Assembly: GCF_004216895.1 (NCBI RefSeq)
Contig: NZ_SGXE01000001.1
Location: 1,470,208 to 1,534,207, forward strand
DNA: 64,000 nucleotides
Direction of reading: 5' to 3'
From: Aquimarina brevivitae
GTDB lineage: Bacteria; Bacteroidota; Bacteroidia; Flavobacteriales; Flavobacteriaceae
The notes under the pieces were generated by a model. That model made no database searches, was not told where the DNA came from, and saw nothing but the letters and a program-made list of their open reading frames with translations. Numbering within the stretch: position 1 is the stretch's first letter; each line of letters opens with the position of its first letter. The translations under genes were made by a program, and so were the position numbers. Shown here piece after piece: positions 35,518 through 50,982 of this stretch.

Positions 35518-38500
35518 ATGCAAATTAAAAAGGTTTTAGTCGCCAATCGTGGGGAAATCGCCATTAGAATTTTTAGAGCCTGTACAGAAATAGGGCTGCA
35601 AACTGTAGGGATTTATACCTACGAAGACCGATACTCTTTGCACCGGTATAAAGCCGACGAAGCCTATCAGATTGGTAAAAATAATGAACCCTTAAAGCCG
35701 TATCTGGATATTGATGCGATCATCAAAGTAGCAAAACAAAATAATGTGGATGCCATACATCCTGGATATGGATTCTTGTCTGAAAATTCAAAATTTGCGC
35801 AAAGTTGTGAGGATAATGGAATCATTTTTATCGGACCTAAGGTTTCCGTGTTAAAGGCCTTAGGCGATAAGATTACCGCAAAGCAAGTAGCGATAGAGAA
35901 TGATATCCCAATTATTCAAAGTAATAAGGAGGAATTAACGGACATAAAAATCGCGGTTAAAGAAGCCAAGCGTATTGGTTACCCAGTGATGCTTAAAGCA
36001 GCTTCTGGTGGTGGAGGTCGTGGTATGCGCGTCATCCGTACCCAGGAGGAATTGGAAAAAGCCTTCCCAGAATCTCGTAGAGAAGCCTTAAATGCATTTG
36101 GTGATGATACGGTGTTTCTTGAAAAATTTGTAGAAAACCCTAAGCATATTGAAATCCAAATTGTGGCGGATCACCATGGTAATATGGTACACCTATTTGA
36201 GCGTGACTGTTCCGTACAACGTAGGTATCAAAAAGTAATTGAGTATGCGCCATCACACGGCGTTGATCAGAAGATATTAGATAGCTTATACCAATATGCA
36301 TTGACCATTTGTAAAGCGGTGGATTATAATAATATTGGTACGGTAGAATTTTTGGTGGATGATGATGGTAGTATTTATTTTATTGAAGTAAACCCTAGAG
36401 TACAGGTGGAGCATACCGTAACCGAAGTGGTAACCGGTATTGATCTGATCAAAGCACAGATCTTTATTGCCGGGGGGTATAAACTATCCGACAAACAAAT
36501 CAAAATAGAAAGTCAGGAGAGCCTGAAAACAACGGGTTTTGCCTTGCAGTGTAGAATTACCACAGAAGATCCTGAAAATGATTTTAAACCAGACTATGGA
36601 ACCATAACTACCTATCGTAGTGCTTCAGGATTTGGGATCCGATTGGATGCAGGTAGTGTTTATCAAGGGGTAACCATTTCTCCATTCTTTGATTCGATGT
36701 TGGTTAAAGTGTCAGCTAGTGGTAGAACCTTGGATGGTGCGTGCAGAAAAATGCGTAGAGCCTTGTCTGAATTTAGAATCCGTGGGGTAAAATCGAATAT
36801 GCCCTTTTTGGATAACATTCTGCAGCACGAAACCTTTAGAAAAGGAGCAGTTACCGTTAACTTTATCAGAGACACCAAGGAATTATTTAAAATAAAAGAA
36901 TCCAGAAACCGAGCTACGAAACTGGCCAACTTTTTAGGGGATATTATTGTTAATGGTAACCCTGATGTCAAACAATTTGACCCGAACAAAAAGTTTGTAG
37001 AGCCTCAGGTTCCTACCTTCGAAAATGATAACGGTTTCCCTAAAGGAACCAAAGATCTATTAACCGAACTAGGACCCGAAAAGTTTGCGCAGTGGTTAAA
37101 AAATGAAAAGAAAGTTCATTTTACGGATACTACCATGCGCGATGCCCATCAAAGTTTATTGGCTACGCGTATGCGTACTTATGATATGCTCAAAGTAGCC
37201 GAAGGTTTCGCTAAGAACCACCCAGAAGTATTTAGTATGGAAGTGTGGGGAGGAGCTACCTTTGATGTATGTCTGCGATTCTTAAAAGAAAACCCGTGGG
37301 AGCGTTTGCGCTTGTTGCGCGAAGCAATGCCTAATCTCTTGCTACAGATGCTAATCCGAGGATCTAATGGGGTGGGATATACGGCCTATCCAGATAATCT
37401 GGTGGAAAAATTTGTAGAACAATCCTGGGAGAACGGCGTAGATGTATTTCGAATTTTTGATTCGCTTAACTGGATGCAATCGATTGCACCTTGTATCGAG
37501 CACGTACGCAAGCGCACCAATGGACTAGCAGAAGGTTCGTTATGTTATACCGGAGATATTTTGGATCCAAAACTTACTAAATATACACTGGAGTATTATG
37601 TACAACTGGCTAAGGATATCGAAAATGCCGGTGCACACATTTTAGGGATTAAAGATATGGCTGGGTTACTTAAGCCATATGCAGCTTCGGAGTTGGTAAG
37701 TGCATTAAAAGCAGAAATTAATATTCCGATCCATTTACACACCCACGATACCTCTTCGGTACAATCTGCAACCTATCTCAAAGCGATTGAAGCAGGAGTA
37801 GACGTGGTGGATGTAGCCTTAGGCGGACTGTCTGGATTAACAGCACAGCCCAACTTTAATGCAATTGTGGAAATGTTGAAATTCCATGAGCGCGAAAACA
37901 AGATCGATATTAATAAATTAAATGAATACTCTCATTATTGGGAAGCCGTGCGCGAGTATTACTACGTCTTTGAATCTGGATTAAAATCCGGTACTGGCGA
38001 GGTATACCAGCACGAAATTCCAGGAGGACAATACTCCAACCTTAAACCACAGGCAGAGGGACTCGGGCTATCCGATCGCTTCCACGAAATCACTAAGATG
38101 TATGGGGAGGTGAACAAGCTTTTTGGAGACCTGGTTAAAGTAACGCCAAGTTCCAAAGTAGTAGGTGATATGGCGCAGTATTTAGTAAGTAATAACTTAA
38201 CTATCGAAGATGTAAAAGAGCGAGGAGAGTCAATATCTTTCCCTCAGTCGGTAGTGAGTTTGTTTAAAGGAGAGTTAGGTCAGCCAGAAGGTGGATTTCC
38301 TAAAGAATTACAAAAAGTAATTCTAAAGGACCAAGAAGCCTTTACCAACCGACCTAATGCGCATCTAGAACCTATTGATTTTGAAGAGGAGTTCAAAGAT
38401 TTCCAAAAAACTTTTAAAAAGGGAATGGGACGTGAGCTGGATATTACCGACTTCTTATCTTATAAACTCTATCCTAAAGTATTTACAGGTGCCTATAATC

Positions 38501-38970
38501 ACCACTTGAAGTATGGTAATGTGATGAACATTCCTACCAAGAATTTCTTCTACGGCATGACCCCGGGAGAAGAAATTATAGTAGAACTGGATAAAGGTAA
38601 GATCTTATTGATTGAGATGATTTCTATTGGAGAGCCTAATGAAGAAGGTATGGTCACCGTATTCTTTAAGGTCAATGGGCAAACCCGAAATGTAGAGATT
38701 CAGGATAATTCCATCAAAGTAGATAAGGTAGTACACGTTAAGGCCGATAAGAGCGATCCGAAACAGATTGCTGCGCCACTACAAGGATCCTTATCCTCGG
38801 TGTTGGTCAAAACAGGTCAGCAAGTAAAGAAAAATGAACCGTTGTTTATCATTGAAGCAATGAAGATGGAAACCACCATCACTGCCAATGAAGCGGCTAC
38901 GGTAAAAAAGATCGTTATTAAATCAGGCACTATGGTAGAAGCCGATGATTTGGTACTGACATTGAAATAA
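35518..38970 (+). CDS. pyc: Pyruvate carboxylase
   Basis: ATP- and biotin-dependent carboxylation of pyruvate to oxaloacetate, refilling the TCA cycle. 1150 residues in one chain. Biotin carboxylase domain 1-460: MLKAASGGGGRGMRV (ATP loop), FIEVNPRVQVEHTVTE. Carboxyltransferase domain about 530-800: FTDTTMRDAHQSLLATRMRTYD (metal Asp), GGATFDVCLRFLKENPWERL, GIKDMAGLLKP with the carbamylated-Lys region, LHLHTHDTS-like IHLHTHDTSS. The C-terminal carrier domain holds IIEAMKMETT with the biotin lysine Lys1116. BirA at 18728 would modify it. Its position right after a TRAP operon of 2-oxo acid type suggests use of imported pyruvate or lactate. A strong terminator follows. Confidence 0.98.
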   Translation: MQIKKVLVANRGEIAIRIFRACTEIGLQTVGIYTYEDRYSLHRYKADEAYQIGKNNEPLKPYLDIDAIIKVAKQNNVDAIHPGYGFLSENSKFAQSCEDNGIIFIGPKVSVLKALGDKITAKQVAIENDIPIIQSNKEELTDIKIAVKEAKRIGYPVMLKAASGGGGRGMRVIRTQEELEKAFPESRREALNAFGDDTVFLEKFVENPKHIEIQIVADHHGNMVHLFERDCSVQRRYQKVIEYAPSHGVDQKILDSLYQYALTICKAVDYNNIGTVEFLVDDDGSIYFIEVNPRVQVEHTVTEVVTGIDLIKAQIFIAGGYKLSDKQIKIESQESLKTTGFALQCRITTEDPENDFKPDYGTITTYRSASGFGIRLDAGSVYQGVTISPFFDSMLVKVSASGRTLDGACRKMRRALSEFRIRGVKSNMPFLDNILQHETFRKGAVTVNFIRDTKELFKIKESRNRATKLANFLGDIIVNGNPDVKQFDPNKKFVEPQVPTFENDNGFPKGTKDLLTELGPEKFAQWLKNEKKVHFTDTTMRDAHQSLLATRMRTYDMLKVAEGFAKNHPEVFSMEVWGGATFDVCLRFLKENPWERLRLLREAMPNLLLQMLIRGSNGVGYTAYPDNLVEKFVEQSWENGVDVFRIFDSLNWMQSIAPCIEHVRKRTNGLAEGSLCYTGDILDPKLTKYTLEYYVQLAKDIENAGAHILGIKDMAGLLKPYAASELVSALKAEINIPIHLHTHDTSSVQSATYLKAIEAGVDVVDVALGGLSGLTAQPNFNAIVEMLKFHERENKIDINKLNEYSHYWEAVREYYYVFESGLKSGTGEVYQHEIPGGQYSNLKPQAEGLGLSDRFHEITKMYGEVNKLFGDLVKVTPSSKVVGDMAQYLVSNNLTIEDVKERGESISFPQSVVSLFKGELGQPEGGFPKELQKVILKDQEAFTNRPNAHLEPIDFEEEFKDFQKTFKKGMGRELDITDFLSYKLYPKVFTGAYNHHLKYGNVMNIPTKNFFYGMTPGEEIIVELDKGKILLIEMISIGEPNEEGMVTVFFKVNGQTRNVEIQDNSIKVDKVVHVKADKSDPKQIAAPLQGSLSSVLVKTGQQVKKNEPLFIIEAMKMETTITANEAATVKKIVIKSGTMVEADDLVLTLK

Positions 38971-38990
38971 AGCATTCACTTTTATAACAT

Positions 38991-39036
38991 AATGGGAAAG
39001 TCACAGCGCTATACCGCTGAGCTTTCCCATTTTTTC
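38991..39036 (+). terminator. Strong terminator after pyc
   Basis: AATGGGAAAG (38991-39000) pairs with CTTTCCCATT (39022-39031), with an inner stem CAGCG/CGCTG, followed by TTTTTC. It ends pyc and separates it from the accessory region. Confidence 0.9.
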
Positions 39037-39083
39037 TTGCTTAGTGACGAACGCTTTTAGAGTTAACAATCGATCCAATAAGG

Positions 39084-39180
39084 TAGTAATCAAAAAACAA
39101 TTAGCTTTGTAGCTAAATAATACTATAATGGAAATAAACGAATTGGTGTTTTTATTTCTACGTTGTGAGTTATTAGAATA
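39084..39180 (+). repeat. Dispersed degenerate repeat, copy A
   Basis: About 95 bases clearly similar to 41914-42009: both contain ATCAAAAAACAA then CTAGCTTTGTAG or TTAGCTTTGTAG, AAATAATAC, and later TGTTTTTATTTCTAC or TGTGTTTATTTCTAC. The TAGCTTTG inside (39102-39109) fits the -7 consensus. Each copy lies directly upstream of a gene (39185 and 42023). It includes a 17-codon frame (39128-39181) starting MEINELVF. Confidence 0.65.
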
Positions 39181-39184
39181 AATA

Positions 39185-39538
39185 ATGGACAGTTTCAAAT
39201 TTGTATCAGATGATGCATTCTATATCTGGGGTAGATGTTTCAGTTTTCAAGGAAAAGTTCTTTCAGGTGAGGTTTCTAAAGATGAAGAAGTAATGATTCA
39301 AACCAAAGATGGATTATTGTACGCTAAGGTGGACCTAATAATTAAGTTATCGGATAGGAAGGTCATAGAAACATCCATTAAAGGAGAACGAATAGCTATA
39401 GGACTTCATAAATTTAGTAAAGAGGAGTTAAACAATATCGAGAAAAATTTTAATTCTGAGGTTGACAAAGAACCATTGACTACTGAATTTTTAGGTGTGG
39501 AATACCCTATTCATATACATATCTCAGACAAAACATAA
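39185..39538 (+). CDS. Hypothetical protein with an EF-Tu domain-2-like beta-barrel
   Basis: 117 residues. The middle (about 15-80) resembles the beta-barrel domain 2 of translation GTPases: FSFQGKVLSGEVSKDEEVMIQT, then strands around VDLIIKLSDRKVIET and GERIAIGLHKFSKEEL. There is no GTPase domain, so it is not a translation factor; stand-alone barrels like this are found in uncharacterised proteins. No signal peptide. It is nine bases upstream of the next gene in the same direction, so the two form an operon. A -7-like box lies in repeat copy A. Confidence 0.65.
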   Translation: MDSFKFVSDDAFYIWGRCFSFQGKVLSGEVSKDEEVMIQTKDGLLYAKVDLIIKLSDRKVIETSIKGERIAIGLHKFSKEELNNIEKNFNSEVDKEPLTTEFLGVEYPIHIHISDKT

Positions 39539-39546
39539 AACAAAAC

Positions 39547-40275
39547 ATGTTCGGGCTAAAGAAAAAACGAGACTATTCAGCAAAGGAAATTCTAACGCAA
39601 CTTGATAATTGTGCCGAAGAATTCACATTCCCTATGTTGGACAACGGATATATTTACCCGATTCACTCTAAGCTAAGTGCTTACCGTAATGAAAAAAGAT
39701 GGGCGTTGATAATTGAGATTATAGGATTTAATTATCGTGGTGGTGGACACAATGGCATTAACAACTGTTTGCACATTTTTGGAAACTGTATAAATACAAA
39801 TCCAGGAACAGATAACGCTAATTTTCTATTTATAACAGACAATAGCTCCGACATTCCAACTTTTGATGATGAGTATGAAGAAAGCTTAAATCCAAACGCA
39901 AAAACTATGACTTTACGTGGTAAAGAAATCTTAATTACTCATAGTCGAGAATTTTACTTGAACAAAGGGATTGAACTTGAGGAAAGCGACAAGATTCTGG
40001 TTTGGGAATTTTTAAGAGGGTTAGAACCTGAATTCAATAAAGACTTCGAAGCAACAGAAGAAGAAATTCGAGATAGAATACCAACGGATATCCCTAAGAT
40101 TCTTGAACTAACTGAATGGTTCCATCCTGATTGTGCTGATTCGGAACTACCCAGTAACAATGAAACTTTTCAGCAAATTGCAAAAGTCTTAGAAACTGGA
40201 CGAAAGGAATTTTATAAACCCAAAAATTCACCTAATAATCATTGGAAAAATTGGCCTGATGGGGGAGCGCTTTAA
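39547..40275 (+). CDS. Conserved hypothetical cytoplasmic protein
   Basis: 242 residues, acidic, no signal peptide or membrane span. Recognisable only as a conserved type seen in scattered Bacteroidota: FTFPMLDNGYIYPIHSKLSAY, ALIIEIIGFNYRGGGHNGINNCLHIFGNCI, and a C-terminal half with ILVWEFLRGLEPEF and TEWFHPDC. Function unknown. The patchy type of distribution and its accessory setting would fit an immunity-like or defence-related protein, but nothing in the sequence proves that. Nine bases after the domain-2-like gene. Confidence 0.7.
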   Translation: MFGLKKKRDYSAKEILTQLDNCAEEFTFPMLDNGYIYPIHSKLSAYRNEKRWALIIEIIGFNYRGGGHNGINNCLHIFGNCINTNPGTDNANFLFITDNSSDIPTFDDEYEESLNPNAKTMTLRGKEILITHSREFYLNKGIELEESDKILVWEFLRGLEPEFNKDFEATEEEIRDRIPTDIPKILELTEWFHPDCADSELPSNNETFQQIAKVLETGRKEFYKPKNSPNNHWKNWPDGGAL

Positions 40276-40354
40276 ATTAAAGCCATTGGGAAAATGTATA
40301 TGTCATATATCCTGGAATGTGAATTAAGAAGTTAAGAGCAATTTACAAGAAGCA

Positions 40355-40376
40355 CCAAATCGTTCATTTGGCTTTT
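40355..40376 (+). terminator. Probable terminator after the 39185-40275 pair
   Basis: CCAAAT (40355-40360), loop CGTTC, ATTTGG (40366-40371), then CTTTT. 80 bases after the stop at 40275. Confidence 0.5.
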
Positions 40377-40588
40377 AAGAATCAATAAATTAAAAACAAA
40401 ATATAATGTTCTGGCTGAGTATAAAATTGAAAGTTTATTAATTTCTACTACCCCCAATACACTGCGTCTCCTGACTTATCGAAATTGTTATTGAATGTAA
40501 CTCTCATAGCTGACGCCTAGTGCCAAGGATAGCTACGATTTATGATAGTAACCTTTTGAATATCCTATTTATTACTATTTTTAACTTA

Positions 40589-40639
40589 ATCATTCGCTAA
40601 CTCCTTAAAGCTATCAGAAGATAGTGAAAAGCGAATGAT
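40589..40639 (+). promoter_or_regulatory. Nested inverted repeat upstream of the 40724 gene
   Basis: Outer arms ATCATTCGCT (40589-40598) and AGCGAATGAT (40630-40639) are perfect; inside is a second stem CTATC-AGAA-GATAG (40611-40624). It spans the -33 area of the TACTTTTG box at 40645 and could be an operator or a folded element. Confidence 0.4.
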
Positions 40640-40644
40640 GGCAC

Positions 40645-40652
40645 TACTTTTG
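40645..40652 (+). promoter_or_regulatory. Predicted -7 box (TACTTTTG) for the 40724 gene
   Basis: Perfect TAnnTTTG match 71 bases before the ATG, directly after the nested inverted repeat. Confidence 0.45.
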
Positions 40653-40723
40653 TTTAGGTAAAATAAACCTAATCGGTCAAAAAATACGGTCAGGTTAATG
40701 AATAGTTTAATACAAACTAACAT

Positions 40724-41197
40724 ATGATGTACAGATATTTAATAATGCTCAAAATACTGGTGCTGATCGGTGTAACCGCTCAGGCTCAAGAGGTAAAGGT
40801 GGATAAACCCTTTCCGCGAGGCTTAGATAAAGGACTTGTATTTAACATGTTACTTGAAGGATTTTTAGACCGGTTTACTGATGCCGAATTTATTGAAGAA
40901 AATTCATTCCGAAAAGTGTATAAGATGATACCGTACCTAAAGGATATTAAAGAGGTATATCTTTATTTTGATAAGGACGGCGAAGAACCTTTATATGAAA
41001 TGATTTTTGTTTTTCACGAAACTGAAAAAGCAAAGGAAACAGCCCTCAAGTTATACGGTTCTCCAAACTACAACGATACGGAGTGGAGGATGAAGTACAA
41101 ATATTTAACACTCTGGAGCTGGATCTATAAAAATAAAATGGTGTTGGTTGGTAATTCTTATAACAGCAACCACGAATGGACAGATTCATTCAATTGA
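40724..41197 (+). CDS. Secreted protein of unknown function
   Basis: 157 residues with a signal peptide ending AQAQ (about residue 22), then a soluble mixed alpha/beta region (LVFNMLLEGFLDRFTDAEFI, EVYLYFDKDGEEPLYEMIFVF, KLYGSPNYNDTEWR) and a W/Y-rich C-terminus. No family recognised. Two ATGs in a row (40724 and 40727) can both start it. Single gene between two non-coding gaps. Confidence 0.7.
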   Translation: MMYRYLIMLKILVLIGVTAQAQEVKVDKPFPRGLDKGLVFNMLLEGFLDRFTDAEFIEENSFRKVYKMIPYLKDIKEVYLYFDKDGEEPLYEMIFVFHETEKAKETALKLYGSPNYNDTEWRMKYKYLTLWSWIYKNKMVLVGNSYNSNHEWTDSFN

Positions 41198-41235
41198 TCA
41201 AAATTAATATAGCAAGCAGAGTGCTACCTGCTGGT

Positions 41236-41252
41236 GCGAGCATCTTGCTCGT
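41236..41252. repeat. REP-like hairpin
   Basis: CGAGCA-TCT-TGCTCG (41237-41251), extended by a G-T pair, within GGTGCGAGCATCTTGCTCGT. It has higher GC than its surroundings and looks like a REP-type palindrome. It lies 39 bases after the stop at 41197 and is not followed by a T run. Confidence 0.45.
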
Positions 41253-41394
41253 ACGCCAATAGTTATCAATTATTTTTTTCTAGGGGTAGAAATATTCGGT
41301 TGATATTTACTAAATTTAATATCCAAAATTATGCTACAAAGCATTCAACGCATGGGTTGCGCCTAACTAGCACATTGAATTAACTAGCGAAAAA

Positions 41395-41823
41395 ATGCAA
41401 ATAACACCTTTTTTAACCTTCGTAGGGGATCAATGCGGAAAAGCTGGGGAGGCCATAGACTACTATACTTCTATCTTCCCGAATTCTGAAATTAAGCGCA
41501 TTAGTAAATATGCTGAAGGAGAAGCCGGTGGCACTCCTGATCTCATTAAATATGCACTAGTTAGCTTAAATGGAACCGATTATATGGTTTCAGAAAGTAA
41601 CTATACTCATGCCTGGTCTTTTACTCCTGCAGTTTCACTTTTAATTAGTGATGATTCTAAAGCATTGATCCAAAACCTTTTTGAAGAGCTTTCCTCAAAC
41701 GGGGGTCAAATTATGGTGCCTTTGGAGGACTATAAAGGAGAAGGAGATTATGGTTTTGGTAAAAAGTTTGGCTGGTGTGCGGACAAATATGGCATTTCGT
41801 GGCAATTTATTCTTGCTACATAA
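41395..41823 (+). CDS. VOC family protein (PhnB-like)
   Basis: 142 residues of the vicinal-oxygen-chelate fold in its PhnB-like form: ITPFLTFVGDQCGKAGEAIDYYTSIF at the N-terminus, MVSESNYTHAWSFTPAVSLLI, and the closing GFGKKFGWCADKYGISWQFIL typical of this group. These small dimeric proteins include resistance and isomerase enzymes, but the PhnB-like set is mostly uncharacterised. No signal peptide. Stands alone. Confidence 0.9.
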   Translation: MQITPFLTFVGDQCGKAGEAIDYYTSIFPNSEIKRISKYAEGEAGGTPDLIKYALVSLNGTDYMVSESNYTHAWSFTPAVSLLISDDSKALIQNLFEELSSNGGQIMVPLEDYKGEGDYGFGKKFGWCADKYGISWQFILAT

Positions 41824-41913
41824 ATCGAAGTGATATGGTACACGATGCTATGGAAGGTGTTAAAATAACTATCAACCGCATCAGCAACGCAGAGTATACA
41901 GAGACCTCCACCT

Positions 41914-42009
41914 ACGATTATCAAAAAACAACTAGCTTTGTAGAAAAATAATACAACGGGAATAGACATTTGGGTGTGTTTATTTCTACCTTAGTAGTAT
42001 TTGCTCAAT
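41914..42009 (+). repeat. Dispersed degenerate repeat, copy B
   Basis: About 95 bases matching copy A (39084-39180), ending 14 bases before the serine-hydrolase gene. Contains TAGCTTTG at 41933-41940, a possible -7 box. See copy A for shared blocks. Confidence 0.65.
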
Positions 42010-42022
42010 AATTAAAATTTGA

Positions 42023-43060
42023 ATGACTAAACCTAAATCCAAAAGGTTACTTCTATTAGTGTTGTTCTTAGGAACAGTACTCTCCTTATATTTTGTGCCG
42101 TGGCCGGTGGTGATTGCTCGGATAACGCCACTCCCAACTACAGTTCAGGAGCAAGTGAATACTGCAGCGGACTATGGATTTGAAGGCATTATTGTTTGTG
42201 TACAACAAAAAGGCAACCCATCAGAATTGTATGTATCTGGCTATAAAAACCGAGAACAGAAAACCCCAGCTGATCCCAATGCACTTTTTAAAATAGCAAG
42301 CGTCGGTAAACTGTATACAGCCTTAGCGGTAGCAAAATTGGTTGCTGATGACAAATTAGCCTTGGACAACACACTTGCGTCCTATTTGCCCGAACTAAAG
42401 GATAGAATAGCCTACGCTGATCAAATAACCCTACGCATGTTGGTGCAGCATAGAAGTGGAATTCCTAATTTTACTGATGGCTATAGGTATTGGGATGCAC
42501 CAAAGAAAACCACAGACAAACAATTGGCTTTGATTTTGGACAAAGCAGCCAATTTTAAACCCGATGAAGACTATGAATATTCCAATACCAATTATGTATT
42601 GCTTGACAGCATCATCCATCGAGTTCTTGGATATGATACCTTTGATTATATCCAAAAAGAGATTTTAGATCCACTACAATTAATGCATACGTATAGTTCA
42701 ATAAAAGAGGTGAATATTGATGCGGTTATGAGTGGGTATTATGTGGGTTATAAAAAGGATTTGAAGACCGAATATGTGGGTTCCATCCTAGCAACTGTAG
42801 AAGACTTGAGCAAATTTATCCGTGCTTTAAATGACGGCTCTGCCTTTAGAGACAATAAAGAACAACAAATCTATACCTCAATCTACAAGTATGAGCACAC
42901 CGGATTAGTACCTGGATACCAAACTATAGCCAAATATCATAAGGATTTAGATGCGGTAGTGGTTCAATTTACAAACACGGTAGACTTTGAGGGTTACAAT
43001 TGGGCGATGTCCGAAATAATGTATGATCGAATTGTTAAGCTATTGAAAAGCAATAATTGA
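42023..43060 (+). CDS. Serine hydrolase of the class C beta-lactamase/penicillin-binding family
   Basis: 345 residues. An N-terminal hydrophobic segment (about 9-27) is a signal anchor or signal peptide. Catalytic motifs: SxxK as FKIASVGKLYT with Ser93 and Lys96; YxN as YEYSNTNY with Tyr186 and Asn188; and HTG in YEHTGLVPGYQ in place of KTG. RMLVQHRSGIPNF is another family mark. Members include D-aminopeptidases, esterases and beta-lactamase-like proteins; beta-lactam resistance should not be assumed. Predicted periplasmic. Preceded by repeat copy B, which may supply its promoter. Confidence 0.9.
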   Translation: MTKPKSKRLLLLVLFLGTVLSLYFVPWPVVIARITPLPTTVQEQVNTAADYGFEGIIVCVQQKGNPSELYVSGYKNREQKTPADPNALFKIASVGKLYTALAVAKLVADDKLALDNTLASYLPELKDRIAYADQITLRMLVQHRSGIPNFTDGYRYWDAPKKTTDKQLALILDKAANFKPDEDYEYSNTNYVLLDSIIHRVLGYDTFDYIQKEILDPLQLMHTYSSIKEVNIDAVMSGYYVGYKKDLKTEYVGSILATVEDLSKFIRALNDGSAFRDNKEQQIYTSIYKYEHTGLVPGYQTIAKYHKDLDAVVVQFTNTVDFEGYNWAMSEIMYDRIVKLLKSNN

Positions 43061-43255
43061 TCACGGTAGTGTGTACTTATAATAGTAATCATCATTAAAT
43101 AACCTTCTCGCTAGTGTTTCTGACCGGGCTAAACCAATTACATCAAATAGGTAATAACTCAAGTCTGGCGTATGATGAACGAATAAGAAAAAGCTTTTAA
43201 CTATAGTTGAAAAAAATAGGGAACGTAACATCTTAAAACCTCATAAATAACATTG

Positions 43256-43747
43256 ATGAAAAACAAAGAAAAATATCTTCTAAGCACCCTAGCCCTAACA
43301 GTTTTAGGGTTTTTGACTTCTCGATGGTTTATGGATATATCTCTATGGCTAGTTGATCATCAACATGTGGATATTGTTGTAACCAAAATGCTTAGAATAT
43401 TTACATCAGACCTTGTGTTTGCAGTGATTCTCGGTATGCTACCGTTACTCTTCCTAGTTGTCGATACGTTATGCGGTTTAAAATCTTTATCGCAAAGACT
43501 AATTACAATAGGATTCATTCTAGGTTTTGGCATTATCACTTGGCTATTTCGAATCGTACAGCTAAATACTGGTTTTAGGCAAATTTCTAAATATAATCTA
43601 GGCAGAGATACTGTTCATGCTTTAGATGCCGGAAGTCTTCAATTTAAGATCTTTTTAGTGTTTGGTTTTTTATTGGGAGCAGTTGTAAGTATATTGGTAT
43701 TTCGAGAAAAAAATAAGAGAAGTGAAGATGATATTGGTATACTATAA
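43256..43747 (+). CDS. Four-helix membrane protein of unknown function
   Basis: 163 residues from ATG 43256 (a TTG one codon earlier is possible). Four hydrophobic segments at about 9-28, 45-68, 80-99 and 130-149, with short loops and a charged C-terminus (FREKNKRSEDD). No family or active-site motif recognised. Single gene. Confidence 0.65.
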   Translation: MKNKEKYLLSTLALTVLGFLTSRWFMDISLWLVDHQHVDIVVTKMLRIFTSDLVFAVILGMLPLLFLVVDTLCGLKSLSQRLITIGFILGFGIITWLFRIVQLNTGFRQISKYNLGRDTVHALDAGSLQFKIFLVFGFLLGAVVSILVFREKNKRSEDDIGIL

Positions 43748-44080
43748 TATATGGAACTAATGGCTTCAGCGCAGCTCTTTTTTGCACAAAACAAACTTTT
43801 TTCATCAACTATAAGTGATTAGAGTAGCTCCCGTTTTCCTGATAAGAATTACAATATATAGCAGGTATAATCTTCAAAACGAAATCGCTTGTACTATATA
43901 AAATGCTTCTCTTAATGAGTATGCTATTATTCCTTTGTAAGGATTGTTATTTGGTTTATTACAAAGTAATAGTGTATATTTAACTCATCTTCACACATTT
44001 TCGCATACGCTCTAGGTGTATTTGCACAACAAACGGCTGTACACCATTTTATTAACAGAACCCATTAAAATCGAAAATGT
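43748..44080. other. 333-base gap with a possible gene remnant
   Basis: No intact gene. A short frame at 44012-44068 reads LGVFAQQTAVHHFINRTH then stop, like the end of a signal peptide followed by a truncated mature start. An eight-base inverted repeat CTTTGTAA/TTACAAAG lies near 43933-43966. Nothing else recognised. Confidence 0.45.
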
Positions 44081-44413
44081 ATGGAAAATCAAAACATTAG
44101 TCAAGAAGAAGCAGCCAACCAAGTTTACGAATACGCTGCCAATCTTTTAGTCAACCAGAAAAAAAGTACTGCCGAAACTAAAAGTGCACTTATTGCACAA
44201 GGTTTAGATGAGGAAAGTGCGACTGCAGTGGTAACGAATCTCAGCCAACAAATCAAAGATGCTAAAAAAGAAGGTGCTAATAAAGATATGCTCTGGGGAG
44301 CAGTTTGGTGTGTTGGTGGTATTATAGCTACAGTTGCGGATATTGGTTTTATATTCTGGGGTGCTATTGTTTTTGGTGCCATTCAATTTTTTAGAGGAGT
44401 TGCTAATTCCTAA
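44081..44413 (+). CDS. Small two-helix membrane protein
   Basis: 110 residues. Helical N-terminal half with a UBA-like pattern (TKSALIAQGLDEESATAVVTNL), then two hydrophobic segments at about 70-86 and 89-105 ending GAIVFGAIQFFRGV. Proteins with this C-terminus are common in Bacteroidota and uncharacterised. Single gene with ATG start. Confidence 0.7.
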   Translation: MENQNISQEEAANQVYEYAANLLVNQKKSTAETKSALIAQGLDEESATAVVTNLSQQIKDAKKEGANKDMLWGAVWCVGGIIATVADIGFIFWGAIVFGAIQFFRGVANS

Positions 44414-44506
44414 ATATTAGTATAAAAATAAAATGAGTCATTTTTAAGGCCTTTCTTTCAAAGTCCTGACAGATTTGTAAACAAGTATTTATTTCAAGTA
44501 ATCGTG

Positions 44507-44514
44507 TATATTTG
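44507..44514 (+). promoter_or_regulatory. Predicted -7 box (TATATTTG) for the 44555 gene
   Basis: Perfect TAnnTTTG match 40 bases before the ATG at 44555. Confidence 0.45.
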
Positions 44515-44554
44515 TGCCTTATTTTATAAAAAATTTAGTAATAGGATATAGTTA

Positions 44555-45187
44555 ATGAAAAAATTATACTTAGTAGGTCTTGGTTTATTAGTTTTCAATT
44601 TAGCATTAGCACAACAAAGAGGAGTCACAGATACGGGAGAAGAAGTGATCTTGTACGCTGACGGAACCTGGAAATATCAGAATAACCAAGAAGCAATTGA
44701 AAAAGAAATTCCAACAAATCCTGAGAAGTTCACAAAGGATGAAGCCTCTACTTTTTTATTAAAAAGTAGCAAGGTTAATGTAGGATTTTACCTAAACCCA
44801 AAACTGTGGTCATTTCAAAAAGCTGTTGAAAATCCTGAAGCTGAATTTGAATTTCAGTTAAAGGATGAAGATTTATATGGAATGATTTTATCTGAGAAGG
44901 TGGAAATTCCTTTAGAGACTTTAAAGTTTATTGCCTTGGAGAATAGTCGTTCAGTAGCACCAGATGTTAGTGTGGTCAAAGAAGAATATAGAAATGTTAA
45001 TGGTTTGAAGGTACTTTTGTTACAATTAAACGGAACAATGCAAGGAATTAAATTTACTTACTATGGATATTATTTTTCCAGTAGCAATGGAACTATTCAA
45101 TTCATCACGTATACTTCGCAAAATTTAATGGAAACATATAAATCAGCCTGTGAAAAATTGTTGAATGGATTGGTGGAATTGAATTAA
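44555..45187 (+). CDS. Secreted protein of unknown function
   Basis: 210 residues: signal peptide 1-19 (ends LALAQ), then a short N-terminal motif seen in many Bacteroidota exported proteins, GEEVILYADGTWKYQN (a one-strand hairpin), followed by a soluble alpha/beta domain (about 60-210) with GFYLNPKLWSFQKAV, LKVLLLQLNGTMQGIKFTYY and a C-terminal helix, somewhat like PsbP/DcrB-type folds. No catalytic motif seen. Single gene. Confidence 0.75.
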   Translation: MKKLYLVGLGLLVFNLALAQQRGVTDTGEEVILYADGTWKYQNNQEAIEKEIPTNPEKFTKDEASTFLLKSSKVNVGFYLNPKLWSFQKAVENPEAEFEFQLKDEDLYGMILSEKVEIPLETLKFIALENSRSVAPDVSVVKEEYRNVNGLKVLLLQLNGTMQGIKFTYYGYYFSSSNGTIQFITYTSQNLMETYKSACEKLLNGLVELN

Positions 45188-45284
45188 TTAGTTATTTGCT
45201 TTATTTAGATGGTAAGTACCACTAAACTAGTGCACTTAACTTGTTTAAAGCTATCCATATTGAATACCCCTAACTCGAAACATT

Positions 45285-45941
45285 ATGAATGTTTACTTCA
45301 CTGGCTTCTTTTTGATTTTTAGTGCGCTATTGTATTCTCAACAGTTTAAAAGAATTAAAGCGAAGCAGGGAAAAGATGAAGATTATTTTCGTTATCAAGA
45401 TTATGCAGCTCCTGATAAACCTATAGGTGAACCAATTTTTTTAAAAGGTTGCAGCTGGTACTGCGGTGGTTCGGTACAAGTAATCAGCGCTTCTTCAGAA
45501 TTATCTGAAAATAAAGGAATTACCTATTCTGCAGCTAATGCCCACGATTTTGATAAAAATACAGCTTGGATCGAAGGTAAACCAGGTTATGGTGTTGGTG
45601 AGTTTATCGAATATCATTTTGATTTTAGAGACCTTCAAGATTATAAAGGAGGACTAGGGATTACCAAGATATTGCTGGCTAATGGATACAAAAAGAATAA
45701 ACAGGTTTGGGAGAATAACTCACGAATACAACAGTTGAAAATGTACGTAAATGGAGAACCTTACGCTGTTTTAAACTTAATTGATTCTTTTGAAATGCAA
45801 ACAATCGATATAGGCACAATAAAATTTCCTTCAAATAAAGAAACTATTTTGAAATTTGAGATTACTAAAGTATACGAAGGCAAAAGATATAAAGACACAG
45901 CAATCAGTCTATTAATGTTTGACGGAATTGGTGTACATTAA
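45285..45941 (+). CDS. Secreted protein with NADase-type glycan-binding domain
   Basis: 218 residues with a signal peptide ending LYSQQ (about 19). The mature part resembles the glycan-binding (translocation) domain of streptococcal NAD glycohydrolase, also found alone in many bacteria: FLKGCSWYCGGSVQV with two Cys likely to form a disulfide, SAANAHDFDKNTAWIEG, GVGEFIEYHFDF, and the end AISLLMFDGIGVH. It has a discoidin-like jelly-roll fold in the family. No NADase catalytic domain is present. Ligand unknown; carbohydrate binding is inferred from the family. Followed by a terminator. Confidence 0.8.
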   Translation: MNVYFTGFFLIFSALLYSQQFKRIKAKQGKDEDYFRYQDYAAPDKPIGEPIFLKGCSWYCGGSVQVISASSELSENKGITYSAANAHDFDKNTAWIEGKPGYGVGEFIEYHFDFRDLQDYKGGLGITKILLANGYKKNKQVWENNSRIQQLKMYVNGEPYAVLNLIDSFEMQTIDIGTIKFPSNKETILKFEITKVYEGKRYKDTAISLLMFDGIGVH

Positions 45942-46020
45942 AAATTTGGATACTCCAATTAAATTTTAATTGATAGCCGGTTGGACAAACCTATACCTTT
46001 ATCATTACGCTGTAAAAAAC

Positions 46021-46049
46021 AAAAAAGCACCTCCAAGAGGTGCTTTTTT
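46021..46049. terminator. Bidirectional terminator between convergent genes
   Basis: AAAAAAGCACCTC (46021-46033), loop CAA, GAGGTGCTTTTTT (46037-46049): perfect 13-base arms with A and T runs, serving the gene ending at 45941 and the minus-strand gene ending at 46067. Confidence 0.93.
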
Positions 46050-46066
46050 AAAGCAGTGGTGTACTC

Positions 46067-46627
46067 CTAAAATTTGTATCCTAAAGATAGTTGAAACACA
46101 TTGTTTCTTACATCAGGATCTTCTATTACGGTAGATATTCCGTGATTATATCTTACTTGGGCAAATAAATGATTTGTAATATCATAAGCAAATCCTATGT
46201 TTACTCCAAAATCGAAACTTGATGCCTCTGTATCATCATCACCCGGTATGTCTCTATCAAGAGATTTAATGCGATCCTTGGCTAAGAAGTTAAATTGTGG
46301 TCCTGCTTCTACACTTAGCTTTTCATATAAATAATACTTAGCGAGTAAAGGAAAAGACATATATTCTAATTCAATTTTATAGGTGTCTTGTACTTCAGAG
46401 CCTTGTCTAGAAAATAATAATTCGGGTTGAACTGAAAATTTATCACTTATTTTAAATTCTGTTACGATACCGGCGTGGACTGTGAATAAATTATTTCTGT
46501 CGGCATCTCCACCGCTAAGGTTGGCCACATTAAGCCCAAATTTTACCCCAAAATCTACCTCTTGTGCATTAGCGGACTGTGTTAGTCCTAAGACTGTAAT
46601 GATTACTACTAATAAAAGTTTTTTCAT
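46067..46627 (-). CDS. Outer-membrane beta-barrel protein (PorT/OMP_b-brl-like)
   Basis: 186 residues: signal peptide 1-21 (ends SANAQ), then alternating strands typical of the small outer-membrane beta-barrel domain of Bacteroidota: FGVKFGLNVANLSGGD, FTVHAGIVTEFKISDKFSVQPELLFSRQGSE, YMSFPLLAKYYLYEKLSVEAGPQFNFL, and the closing NVFQLSLGYKF, ending in Phe as barrels often do. No enzymatic motif. It probably has eight strands. Role unknown (adhesion, stress or structural). Confidence 0.88.
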   Translation of the reverse strand: MKKLLLVVIITVLGLTQSANAQEVDFGVKFGLNVANLSGGDADRNNLFTVHAGIVTEFKISDKFSVQPELLFSRQGSEVQDTYKIELEYMSFPLLAKYYLYEKLSVEAGPQFNFLAKDRIKSLDRDIPGDDDTEASSFDFGVNIGFAYDITNHLFAQVRYNHGISTVIEDPDVRNNVFQLSLGYKF

Positions 46628-46927
46628 ACGTGAAATGATTTAGTTTTTAAAATGAGCTAACACCAAATCCATAAAACGTGCCAAAATTTGAAGCTTTACT
46701 GTTACAAATAAGAATAGGGCTGTTTTTCAGTAAATTATCTAAAGCAATTTTTTTACGTATTTATCGTAATATTGAGCGCTTACGAATTTTTGCCATCTTT
46801 TAGTCAAAACTTAGCTTTCCCGTCAGCGAGTGAGAGAAATCACTGATTTGGCTAAGCAACTCTTAGGTGTGTTAGCTTTGTATAATTATTCTTTACTTTT
46901 GAACCATACAAAAAGCAAGTTAACCTA
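46628..46927. other. 300-base divergent spacer before the LytTR gene
   Basis: Non-coding. Holds a nested inverted repeat CTTAGC...GCTAAG (46810-46815, 46851-46856) around AGTGA/TCACT (46829-46833, 46840-46844), and two -7-like boxes, TAGCTTTG (46873-46880) and TACTTTTG (46894-46901), 27 bases before the ATG. Confidence 0.55.
46894..46901 (+). promoter_or_regulatory. Predicted -7 box (TACTTTTG) of the LytTR gene
   Basis: Perfect TAnnTTTG match 26 bases before the ATG at 46928; a second match TAGCTTTG lies at 46873-46880. Confidence 0.45.
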
Positions 46928-47764
46928 ATGGGTACGAAACCATCAACCAGAAACATATTTAAAAAAATAGGGGAGGTCATTACCAGTGATACGGCACGCC
47001 GGTGGATTCAAAAAGCCTTGATCTTGGTACTGTTCTCTTTAGTGGTCAATCACTTAGCCCATCGCGATAGCTTTCCGGATGGTGAATCCTATCGCTTTCC
47101 CGTAGAGGGGTTTGTATCTTCCATTGTCTTATGTATTGTAATTGGGTTTATTACATATTTTAATTTTAAAAGGTACCAGAACAAGTATTTTTTCAAAAAG
47201 GTGGAAGCAGCAACCATTATCAAGTTTATGGCTTCCACACTGGGGTATATTGTTGTTTTCTATATTCCAGTAAATCTTCTATTAAATGTAATTGTCGGTG
47301 CGGAGACAGAGTTTTATTATATAGTCATAGGTTTACTGATTACGCTGTTAGTAAGTTTTATTTTTATAGGATTGTGGTATGCGCAAGATATTTACGATTT
47401 ATATCAATCGTCGATCAAAGACGCGGAACTCACTATAGCAAGTGGTGCCAAAATGACTAAGCTTACTTATGAAGATATCGCCTGCTTTTATAGCGAGAAC
47501 AAAATTGTATACACGGTTCAAAATGATGGTGCCACCCTCACCACTGATTTCACCCTAAATGAGCTTGAAGAAACCATAAACGATCAATTATTTTTTAGAG
47601 CCAATCGACAAATGATCATTCACAAAGATGCTGTTGACCAAATCGAAAAAATAGAAAATGGTAAGTTACGCATTCGATTAAAAGCCTCACTTCATAATGA
47701 TGCCATCGGGCAAATCACTATCAGTCGATACAAGCGAAAAGTATTTATGGATTGGTATACCTAA
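46928..47764 (+). CDS. Membrane-bound LytTR transcriptional regulator
   Basis: 278 residues. Four membrane helices (about 28-43, 60-79, 98-120, 129-151), then a cytoplasmic LytTR DNA-binding domain (about 175-278): MTKLTYEDIACFYSENKIVY, FTLNELEETINDQLFFRANRQ, MIIHKDAVDQIEKIENGKLR, TISRYKRKVFMDW. LytTR domains bind direct repeats upstream of target genes. Having no receiver domain, it would sense through the membrane part. It is 125 bases upstream of a CPBP protease gene, so that gene may be its target or partner (inference). The N-terminal domain is not a family I can name. Confidence 0.88.
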   Translation: MGTKPSTRNIFKKIGEVITSDTARRWIQKALILVLFSLVVNHLAHRDSFPDGESYRFPVEGFVSSIVLCIVIGFITYFNFKRYQNKYFFKKVEAATIIKFMASTLGYIVVFYIPVNLLLNVIVGAETEFYYIVIGLLITLLVSFIFIGLWYAQDIYDLYQSSIKDAELTIASGAKMTKLTYEDIACFYSENKIVYTVQNDGATLTTDFTLNELEETINDQLFFRANRQMIIHKDAVDQIEKIENGKLRIRLKASLHNDAIGQITISRYKRKVFMDWYT

Positions 47765-47889
47765 AATAGGATTAAAAAGCAGCGACCATTCAGTTATAAC
47801 TTTAACACCATTCAGTAAAAAGCTACGTATTTAAAGGAGTTTTCAAAGGTTTTGTTCATTAATTCGCTTATCAATTAAAATCAAAAACA

Positions 47890-48552
47890 ATGAAAACGAT
47901 TACTTTAAAAAGTCTACTAATTCCAGTATGTACTACTGCTATGATCTGTTTGATATGGTTTGGACCGATCCATATCAGTTATATAGAAAATATCATCATT
48001 GCAATACTTATTATGATTGCCAATTATATAGAATATAAAGGAAAGGCATTTGAAGCACTCGGGTTGCAACGGGATAAATTTACCATTACAAATATCTTTG
48101 TAGTTGCGCCCTTAGTCGCTCTAGGGCTCTTTGCGTGTTATGTTTTTCTCATCGTACCCGGTATTACAGCTCTAACAGGAGTGCCTATCGATTACTCGAG
48201 TTTTGCACAGTTAGAAGGAAATTTGCGCGCATGTTTGATTGCTTTGGGGGTGGTGTGGCTTACCGCCGGTTTTGGAGAAGAAATTATCTTTCGTGGATAT
48301 TTTATGCGCCAGTTGATAAAGTTTTTTGGTGAAAGCACAGTAAGCATAGTGCTGAATATTATACTATTGGCTTGCTTTTTTGGTTTTATGCATAGCTATC
48401 AAGGTATTACCGGGCAATGGGTTGCCGGGATTATCGGAGGGCTCTTAGCGCTGTTATTCTATTTGCGTAAATACGATTTGTGGTTTGTGATCGCGGTGCA
48501 TGGATTTTTTGACACTTTTGCCTTAGTTTGTATTTATTTGGGCCTAGCATAA
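47890..48552 (+). CDS. CPBP family intramembrane glutamic protease
   Basis: 220 residues with six or more membrane helices. The Rce1/CPBP motifs are complete: GEEIIFRGYFMRQL (Glu130, Glu131, Arg135), CFFGFMHSYQG with His168, and VIAVHGFFDTF. Enzymes of this family cleave prenylated or other membrane peptides; bacterial members often process or give immunity to peptide bacteriocins. Substrate unknown. Same direction as the LytTR gene; LytTR regulator plus CPBP protein is a pairing known from bacteriocin loci, but no bacteriocin-like leader peptide was found here. Confidence 0.92.
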   Translation: MKTITLKSLLIPVCTTAMICLIWFGPIHISYIENIIIAILIMIANYIEYKGKAFEALGLQRDKFTITNIFVVAPLVALGLFACYVFLIVPGITALTGVPIDYSSFAQLEGNLRACLIALGVVWLTAGFGEEIIFRGYFMRQLIKFFGESTVSIVLNIILLACFFGFMHSYQGITGQWVAGIIGGLLALLFYLRKYDLWFVIAVHGFFDTFALVCIYLGLA

Positions 48553-48720
48553 TGCTATACTAAGATAATTTGACAAAGGATTTAGCATGAACTCAGGATG
48601 TTTTTATGTATTCTTACAGTACAACAAGTACTTGATGGTTTTTAAAAAATAAAAGTTTTGTAGTAGTAGAGCTAAGCGATATCTATACAGATTCATATAT
48701 TGCTATGGTATACTAATTAA

Positions 48721-49434
48721 TTGGACCTTGTGAAACAGGAAGTTATACATACAAAAAGACCTAAAATAATACTACAGGTATTCCATAATTACTTTTTGTA
48801 CCATAAGAATATGAAATCCTATGAAGATCGAAAGGGATTAACAAAATGGAAGCAAGAAATCCATTCAAAATCAGCATTCTTAGAAAATGGGAGGCTAACT
48901 TTGGCAAAATCAGAGTATAACTCAGACTTTGATCTTGCCAATTTGATCATCCTAAATGACTATAACAATGATGCTGAAGTAAATGAACTTAACTTACAGC
49001 AACTAAACCATAGGAATAGTGCAATGAATTGTAAAGTAAGAAACGAAGTACAAAATCGGATTGATTTAAAACGCGTACACTATTTGACTTTAGCTAAAAC
49101 TCCAAAAAAGTTTGAGATTTTTCAACTGAAGAAAGTTAAAGAGCAAATAGAATTGCATCTGCTATATGACTATTATGAAATTGGAGCGCCTAAAAGAGAT
49201 AATTTCAAAATTTGCAATCTAGAAATCAACCAACCCATAGCAATTAAAATAAATGGAAAACTTGACCACTCTTTGTCCAGTGGTCGAGAACGGTCTTATA
49301 AAGAACATAGCTATATCTTTCACCTACTTGGCTATGCGAATACGTTTTCGTGGGTTCGAGAACCATTTGAGGGTGATGTAAAATCCATACCCGAACCCAT
49401 CAAAACGGTAGATTTGATGAAAGAATTGTATTAA
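48721..49434 (+). CDS. Hypothetical protein, non-ATG start
   Basis: Up to 237 residues, basic and polar, no signal peptide or membrane span. Unrecognised. Patches: LTKWKQEIHSKSAFLENGRLTL, FDLANLIILNDYNND, KIQPIAIKING-like NQPIAIKINGKLDHSLSSGRE and a C-terminal helix TVDLMKELY. An in-frame TAA lies just before 48721, and the only starts near the beginning are TTG 48721 or GTG 48730; the first ATG is codon 31. Either it has a rare start or the 5' end is damaged. It is flanked by long non-coding gaps. Confidence 0.6.
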   Translation: MDLVKQEVIHTKRPKIILQVFHNYFLYHKNMKSYEDRKGLTKWKQEIHSKSAFLENGRLTLAKSEYNSDFDLANLIILNDYNNDAEVNELNLQQLNHRNSAMNCKVRNEVQNRIDLKRVHYLTLAKTPKKFEIFQLKKVKEQIELHLLYDYYEIGAPKRDNFKICNLEINQPIAIKINGKLDHSLSSGRERSYKEHSYIFHLLGYANTFSWVREPFEGDVKSIPEPIKTVDLMKELY

Positions 49435-50051
49435 AATACGCTAGTTGCTTTACCAATAGTATATAGCATGAATGCTGGTTTTGGAAAGTTCAGTATCCGT
49501 TCCATAATTGGTTGTAGCATTACTACTTAGATATGGAAGTCTTATTTTTAAGGCGTTAGTGCAATTCCGTTTATATTTTCAAACTTCAAAAAACAAGTAA
49601 GATAGCCCTGCAAATTATGTTCAAGTCTTTGGTATTTTCGGAAAACGAATAGTTTTGTACAATTAAATAGCAACCTTTAGGAATAGGTGTGTTTATCTTT
49701 GGTTGGCTCGCCTATGCTGCTTTTGCTATTGGTAAAACCGGTACTCAAAAGAAGTAGCTTCGCTTATTTTTTAATTGAGGATTTTAGAACTCCACTACAG
49801 CTACTGTGTAAAATACTAAAATCATATATCTTGAAATGATTATTTTGTCATTTCTCAAATCTTACTATTTTTATACAACAAGTGGGAAAAATTTGATATC
49901 TAGCTTCTTATAAAAGATCTTGAAAAAATAAGTTGGCTTCATTATTGATGATTCACATTAATAAGTTGGGTGCTTTAGTCCTCAACACCGATATGATTTG
50001 ATTTTTGTTTTACGTACGAATACAATAGGATATTCTTTAAATAATACTACT
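49435..50051. other. 617-base gap with a degenerate small gene
   Basis: No intact gene. At 49679-49757 a frame reads GIGVFIFGWLAYAAFAIG and then KTGTQKK before a stop; it has no start codon and an in-frame TAG just upstream, so it looks like the remnant of a small membrane protein. TAGTTTTG (49650-49657) precedes it. The rest is AT-rich with no structure I can support. Confidence 0.5.
49641..49700 (+). repeat. Possible third, diverged copy (C) of the dispersed repeat
   Basis: GAAAACGAATAGTTTTGTAC followed by AATTAAATAG and later GGTGTGTTTATCTTTGG resembles copies A and B in block order and spacing, but with more changes. Here the downstream part still looks protein-coding. Confidence 0.35.
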
Positions 50052-50831
50052 ATGGCAAAAAAGTTTTTACTGCTACTGTTTTTATATAGTATCATAACAC
50101 CGTTAACTGCACAGACTTCATCAGCCACGCCTAAAGAAAATAAATGGGTGTTGGTAATGGCCAAAGGAACGGGATATGATTTACAGCGTTGGAGAACCCG
50201 TTCTTATTTTCCTAAAGATGAAATTAAAGAAGGTTGGGATGATGGGTATCAGATTACTTCCTTAACACACGGTGCAGGTCAATGGGCATTAGTGATGTCT
50301 AAGACCAACAAATATGGTTTGCAACGCTGGAGAACCCGATCCTATTATCCCAAAGAAGAGATTCAGCAAGGCTGGGCTGATAATTTTGCAATCACTTCTT
50401 TACTATACGCAGACGGAACCTGGGCACTAGTAATGACTAAAAATACAGGCTATACCAGACAAATATGGAAAAGATCCACTGATTTTCCGCATGCACGTAT
50501 TGATCAGGGTTGGAGCGAAGGGTACAAAATTACCTCGTTGACACACGGGGATGGCAAATGGGTAATGGTGATGTCCAAAGGAACGGGATACACCAATCAA
50601 AGAACTAGAACATCCATAGAATTTCCTAGTACTGAAATCAAAACAGGATGGAATGAAGGTTACCAAATCACCTCCTTGAATTTTGTTAATGGATTTTGGT
50701 ACTTGATAATGTCCAAAGGAACTGGGTATTATCAAGAAATGTGGAGAACCCGTTTCAATTTTCCTAAAGACGAAATTAAAAAAGGATGGGATGATGATAA
50801 ATCCATCTCCTATATTTATTACGCTGAGTAG
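50052..50831 (+). CDS. Secreted protein of five exact 46-residue repeats (DUF7477-like)
   Basis: 259 residues from ATG 50052 (the frame extends 18 codons upstream without a signal-like start). Signal peptide 1-21 (ends LTAQ). The mature part is five tandem repeats with an exact 46-residue period: the first Trp of each is Trp32, 78, 124, 170 and 216. The unit begins W-x-L-V-M-S-K-G-T-G-Y, continues Q-x-W-R-T-R-S, then FPKDEIKxGW and GYQITSL. It resembles DUF7477 repeats of plant and bacterial proteins. Five units of about 46-47 residues are the plan of five-bladed beta-propeller lectins such as tachylectin-2, so a glycan-binding propeller is likely but inferred. The SGNH-MBOAT operon begins 151 bases on. 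Confidence 0.85.
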   Translation: MAKKFLLLLFLYSIITPLTAQTSSATPKENKWVLVMAKGTGYDLQRWRTRSYFPKDEIKEGWDDGYQITSLTHGAGQWALVMSKTNKYGLQRWRTRSYYPKEEIQQGWADNFAITSLLYADGTWALVMTKNTGYTRQIWKRSTDFPHARIDQGWSEGYKITSLTHGDGKWVMVMSKGTGYTNQRTRTSIEFPSTEIKTGWNEGYQITSLNFVNGFWYLIMSKGTGYYQEMWRTRFNFPKDEIKKGWDDDKSISYIYYAE

Positions 50832-50936
50832 TAACTTTTACTAAGAAGTATCGAATAGAAGTTAGGTGATACTAATTCTTAAACCTAAAGACAGCTTGGT
50901 TTTTGCAATTAAAACCACTTATAATTTATATAAGTT

Positions 50937-50965
50937 TTGCTGTTCCTAAAATCTTGCTATTTTTA
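50937..50965 (+). promoter_or_regulatory. Predicted promoter of the SGNH-MBOAT operon
   Basis: TTG (50937-50939), 18 bases, TATTTTTA (50958-50965; last base differs from TAnnTTTG), 17 bases before the TTG start codon at 50983. Its position supports that start. Confidence 0.45.
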
Positions 50966-50982
50966 CAAAAAACCCCGGTTAC

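Follow-up and report, generated by a model that had tools for sequence, protein, structure and literature searches.

A secreted five-unit DUF7477 protein of Aquimarina brevivitae predicted to form an alpha/beta ring resembling the N-domain of polyglycine hydrolases

What is the role of a small, apparently secreted protein that consists of five regular repeats and is encoded beside genes for polysaccharide O-acetylation? This question is raised by a gene in the window, by which we mean the whole stretch of 64,000 nucleotides of Aquimarina brevivitae that was analysed. A sequence-only reading had proposed a glycan-binding propeller lectin with the architecture of tachylectin-2. Tachylectin-2 binds N-acetylated sugars, and it is like the window protein in the number (five) and approximate length of its units. 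Our analysis indicates that the protein is probably a docking module and not a tachylectin-like sugar propeller, because its predicted ring resembles the one carried by a fungal chitinase-cutting protease. The gene and its parts are as follows:

50052-50831, plus strand: DUF7477 gene, 259 residues, secreted (by inspection), a five-unit module without other domains
50052-50114, plus strand: signal peptide by inspection, residues 1-21, MAKKFLLLLFLYSIITPLTAQ
50145-50282, plus strand: unit 1, residues 32-77, from the repeat register
50283-50420, plus strand: unit 2, residues 78-123, from the repeat register
50421-50558, plus strand: unit 3, residues 124-169, from the repeat register
50559-50696, plus strand: unit 4, residues 170-215, from the repeat register
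50697-50828, plus strand: unit 5, residues 216-259, from the repeat register

The ATG at 50052 is the sensible choice of start codon, the alternative being an in-frame TTG at 49998, and the N-terminus of the protein (KK, a hydrophobic stretch and TAQ) has, by inspection, the appearance of a signal peptide, in agreement with the earlier suggestion of a secreted protein. As had been noted, W32, W78, W124, W170 and W216 open gap-free units of 46 residues; the last unit has 44. The mature protein is identical to itself at 47% of positions at offset 46, 41% at offset 92 and 51% at offset 138, compared with a top self-identity of 17% (offsets 5-139) in 2,000 shuffles of the same sequence, and the five-unit repetition is far above chance. 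The repeats had been called exact, which is true of their spacing and not of their letters, since pairwise identities between units range from 14/44 to 28/46. Pfam places the protein in DUF7477 (PF24289) at 141.5 bits (cut-off 27), so that what had been described as a DUF7477-like repeat is a full member by score, here in a stand-alone secreted form. An NCBIfam scan of the protein gave no match at E <= 1.

The fold was predicted in two AlphaFold2 jobs with two-row alignments, one of the window module with its Kordia relative as second row and one with the two rows exchanged. The best model of the window module (pLDDT 76.9, pTM 0.73) and that of the Kordia module (pLDDT 81.7, pTM 0.79), which is 51% identical to it, each contain 15 strands and 5 helices, and every unit in both models has the order strand-strand-helix-strand. 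The remaining four models were poorer in both jobs (pLDDT 57.9-38.4 for the window module and 62.0-48.7 for the Kordia module), and for this reason the evidence for the fold is moderate. In Foldseek searches of the PDB, 7tpu ranks first for both models (E 1.4e-3 for the window model and 6.1e-3 for the Kordia model, probability 1.00), with a loose superposition (TM 0.46 and 0.41, rmsd 7.8 and 7.6, respectively). VIA-align superposes the Kordia model on 7tpu over 215 residues (Z 20.2, rmsd 2.8; next row Z 6.4) and the window model over 140 residues only (Z 11.1, rmsd 2.8; next row Z 6.5). Sequence identity in the structural alignments with 7tpu is 8-11%. PCSK9 rows in the structure search (Z up to 6.5) were treated as a common arrangement. 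Pentein/IF6, a five-fold alpha/beta propeller that was considered as an alternative on account of its topology, is absent among the PDB matches listed by Foldseek and VIA-align. In addition, a BFVD search (model m9d6ede1894ca) returned proteins of the coliphages phiJLA23, Jk06 and Rogue1, with alignments that extend over roughly two units (102-105 columns, E 6.1e-4 to 6.9e-4, probability 1.00, query TM 0.30-0.32).

The entry 7tpu is the polyglycine hydrolase Fvan-cmp, whose N-domain is described as barrel-like and composed of five 44-residue EHEE repeats, each of three strands and one helix, in a fold that was then new among solved structures (PMC9912923). According to the same paper, the function of the N-domain was not known to its authors, the fold is spread across all kingdoms, and substrate positioning, protein-protein interaction and exosite binding were raised as possible roles (PMC9912923). 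The features of this fold (five EHEE repeats, 15 strands, 5 helices and a ring) recur in the predicted DUF7477 models, and we consider it very probable that the five units form a strand-strand-helix-strand ring like that of the polyglycine hydrolase N-domain. Fvan-cmp differs from the window protein in its C-terminal beta-lactamase-fold domain: Pfam names no such domain in the window protein, which ends after unit 5. Propeller blades consist of four antiparallel strands (PMC9218822, PMC8458387), whereas in both the window and the Kordia models the predicted units have three strands and a single helix each, and for that reason the tachylectin-2 architecture is not supported. The structure prediction that had been proposed as a check on the five-bladed ring therefore upholds one half of the earlier claim, a predicted five-unit ring as deduced from the superposition of the Kordia model on the 7tpu N-domain, and speaks against the other half, namely tachylectin-type beta blades, as the units carry one helix each.

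A relationship to the polyglycine hydrolase repeat is also suggested by profile comparison. The corresponding Pfam family, PF17660 (BTRD1), bears the name 'Polyglycine hydrolase-like, structural repeat', and a BTRD1 protein was found in one of 148 genomes drawn from the phylum, where five PF17660 units are followed by a beta-lactamase-fold domain, which is the layout of Fvan-cmp. A BTRD1 profile of four rows (A5) finds 7tpu_A at E 3.1e-17, within the N-domain. When the DUF7477 and BTRD1 profiles were compared by hhalign, they aligned in register over 153 columns (score 36.5, probability 53%, E 1.4e-4), with helix over helix and the following Gly-Tyr strand over its counterpart. Control scores were lower: no more than 19.7 in 200 column shuffles (probability <= 0.98), 11.4 with the profile reversed, and 11.9 and 16.5 for two other regions of five PD40/OmpA proteins. 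The single-unit comparison of the two families was weak (probability 20.8, E 0.0011), with three of the 20 BTRD1 pieces cut out of register. Because the window protein itself has no Pfam match to PF17660 at E <= 1, we take DUF7477 and BTRD1 to be remote homologues, as the profile alignment suggests, and not one membership. As judged by eye, the two families differ in the residues that they conserve: Ala-Arg-His ahead of the helix in BTRD1 and Gln-x-Trp in the strand in DUF7477. Searches of PDB sequences with the window and Kordia proteins gave nothing useful, and the 12-row DUF7477 profile gave nothing at E <= 10.

The distribution of the DUF7477 module is sporadic. In genome samples that overlap one another, it was detected in 2 of 66 for the genus, 9 of 397 for the family (E <= 0.001; eight above the cut-off), 8 of 296 for the phylum, counting A. 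brevivitae itself, and 13 of 294 for the class of genome G077 (12 above the cut-off). The ninth match in the family (G765:C1:142025-142252, L044) is weak, scoring under the cut-off, and its frame contains seven stops; it is either a decayed copy or chance. A. brevivitae has a single copy. A pattern scan of the genome collection recovered one relative, L026 of Kordia, at 54% identity, and no relative of the window protein was found in plasmids and phages by tblastn or in viral contigs by peptide patterns. Three viral contigs returned by a DNA pattern (L064, L065 and L066) were taken as chance, because the frames of at least 80 residues that cover the pattern in L064 and L066 contain no repeated units and L065 has no such frame on that strand.

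Twelve modules were aligned (A4), covering 12 of the 24 genomes with a DUF7477 match; outside this alignment are ten fetched loci (L060 and L063 among these), G512, and G765 with its seven-stop frame. Five is an independent unit count only in the window protein, L024, L026, L053 and L052, where the borders are set by signal peptide, linker or protein end, because the module ends in A4 were cut by hand; not all five units match well in L018, L019, L022, L023, L025 and L055, where some have E > 0.01. A tree of the 12 modules leaves five of nine inner branches open, and the fork joining the window module to M48-like modules is weak (81/83).

The nearest modules found, of which that of the Kordia protein is 51-54% identical to the window module, belong to M48-like fusions, L026 and L053, in which an M48-matching domain is followed by a Thr-rich linker and then by five units; the M48 match exceeds the Pfam cut-off and is short, spanning some 30 residues around HEXXH. 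The Kordia protein is thus like the window protein in its five-unit module and differs from it in the partially M48-matching domain and linker in front. In L052 the module precedes a caspase (Peptidase_C14) domain. L018 and L022 combine DUF7477 with PD40 and OmpA according to Pfam, and L019, L020, L021 and L023 are similar by reading. The protein at 3102-5720 of L058 contains TPR, DUF7477 and AAA parts without an evident signal peptide, and the module accordingly also accompanies cytosolic-type domains. When 11 relatives were scanned with Pfam for fusions, DUF7477 was the only domain above a cut-off in five (L054, L055, L056, L057 and L024). L024, which comes from the distant genome G205 of the same phylum but a different family, resembles the window protein in being secreted and standing alone. 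A similar N-terminal region, recognized by eye and without a Pfam name, is present in L052 (4139-6229), L054 (3795-5123), L055 (4816-6060) and L057 (4428-5768). In PADLOC, the window, Kordia and caspase proteins had no match at E <= 0.001; the matches of L058 fall in its AAA part, which resembles IetA models.

One position of the repeat is better kept than any other. Over 12 proteins with five units each, Gln occupies unit position 14, in strand 2, in 56 of 60 cells, compared with 82% for Trp 1, 78% for Pro 23 and 75% for Ile 37, and positions 15 and 17 beside it vary. The window protein has Gln in units 1-4 and Glu in unit 5. Such a fivefold polar position suggests a shared candidate contact site.

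As for genomic context, the gene lies in the following region:

38971-50982, no strand: variable stretch of 12 kb, from pyruvate carboxylase to the SGNH-SGNH-MBOAT genes, containing the DUF7477 gene among several

Pyruvate carboxylase is encoded at 35518-38970, and the SGNH-SGNH-MBOAT operon, whose SGNH and MBOAT genes are of the polysaccharide O-acetylation type and adjoin the DUF7477 gene, begins at 50983. In 9 of 10 relatives pyruvate carboxylase is situated 0.16-5.8 kb upstream of SGNH1, the first operon gene, against 12 kb in the window; in the tenth it was not found in the fetched stretch. SGNH1 occurs in 19 of the 21 genus genomes examined, own genome included, compared with 2 of 66 for DUF7477. 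Homologues of the DUF7477, LytTR, CPBP and 48721 proteins were found upstream of SGNH1 in none of 10 relatives (8.3-8.6 kb, E <= 0.001), and the three operon proteins in none of 21 DUF7477 loci (5-15 kb each, E <= 0.01). The gene order in related genomes, which the sequence-only reading had named as a check, thus does not bear out the linkage that it had drawn between the protein and the operon, and because this neighbourhood is not conserved in relatives, the O-acetylation context looks positional. The same variable stretch encodes a serine beta-lactamase-fold protein (PF00144, 153.7 bits) at 42023-43060; polyglycine hydrolases fuse a beta-lactamase fold to the five-repeat ring, and here this protein and DUF7477 are encoded by separate genes. 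It also encodes, at 45285-45941, a protein with a signal-like N-terminus and a NADase_transloc F5/8 type C domain (PF25302, 142.9 bits), in which Pfam names no other domain.

Considering these data together, we find it reasonably likely that the window protein is a secreted or periplasmic, stand-alone DUF7477 alpha/beta ring with a non-catalytic role in recognition or docking, most likely for a protein. The signal peptide (by inspection), the five units, the DUF7477 assignment and the similarity to BTRD1 come from sequence, and the secondary structure and the ring come from prediction; the lack of catalytic activity and the recognition or docking role are what we infer from them. After export, or in the periplasm, the five units would form the ring, which would act without catalysis as a recognition or docking module, most likely on a protein partner, and the contact surface may include the strand-2 Gln, one per unit. 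Relatives in other genomes follow a comparable plan, with this module joined to a peptidase, caspase-like, AAA or OmpA domain. These fusions suggest a module that directs the catalytic or anchoring domain beside it to a target, and a protein-docking ring is therefore favoured, with glycan binding as the main rival. No partner of the window protein is indicated, because it has neither a partner domain nor a conserved neighbour.

That main rival, which we regard as rather unlikely, keeps the same ring fold and assigns it a glycan ligand, so that the protein would be a secreted lectin-like module for a cell-surface or environmental polysaccharide. Secretion (by inspection), five repeats in which Trp and Gln positions are conserved, relatives that are placed at the cell envelope by their OmpA domain, and the adjoining SGNH and MBOAT genes in its own genome would all suit such a ligand. 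However, relatives join the module to an M48-like peptidase, to a caspase domain and, in a protein without an evident signal peptide, to TPR and AAA parts, Pfam names no carbohydrate-active domain in the 11 relatives scanned, and the gene neighbourhood is not conserved. Less probable still is that the protein is a leftover of an M48-peptidase fusion that lost its enzyme part and has no present function. The nearest modules found are indeed those of the M48-like L026 and L053 (53-54% identity), any DUF7477 occurs in so few genomes of the genus, and the gene sits in a variable stretch; yet its frame is open throughout and encodes a signal peptide and all five regular units, tblastn of the window for remains of an M48 domain gave nothing better than E 0.35, a genome search for them, run without a positive control, gave no match at E <= 0.01, the stand-alone secreted form is also present in the distant genome G205, and the tree fork to the M48-like modules is weak. 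Finally, a classical beta-propeller lectin with five blades, as in tachylectin-2, to which the five 46-residue units with Trp opening each would conform, is very improbable given the three strands and one helix per unit in both models, the absence of a lectin family from the three that Pfam lists at E <= 1 (an absence that counts only if Pfam has a tachylectin model), and a 7tpu match of the Kordia model that stands far above every other row in VIA-align.

A non-catalytic docking ring, most likely for a protein, may also bear on eukaryotic members of the family. Plant photoregulatory/MUT9-like kinases presumably carry DUF7477 at their C-terminus, the PPKC region being what we take to be this domain. 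The C-terminal region of these kinases (PPKC, about 280 residues) is conserved and is needed to bind cryptochrome 2 but not PIF3 (PMC7084540, PMC5437284). If our assumed annotation of the plant proteins is right, the need for PPKC in cryptochrome 2 binding would be a functional datum for DUF7477 (PMC7084540); no paper on DUF7477 or PF24289 itself was found in the open-licence papers searched.

Through the solved structure 7tpu, DUF7477, a domain without an assigned function, gains a structural template and a home, and this link speaks against the classical propeller-lectin reading. More tentatively, DUF7477 and BTRD1 may be two branches of one widespread five-unit alpha/beta recognition ring, by which bacteria, fungi and, if the plant annotation holds, plants would select the protein targets of the proteases, kinases and ATPases that carry it, with the ring of five Gln residues as a DUF7477-specific contact site; the scattered DUF7477 fusions would then become one idea, that of a shared recognition ring.
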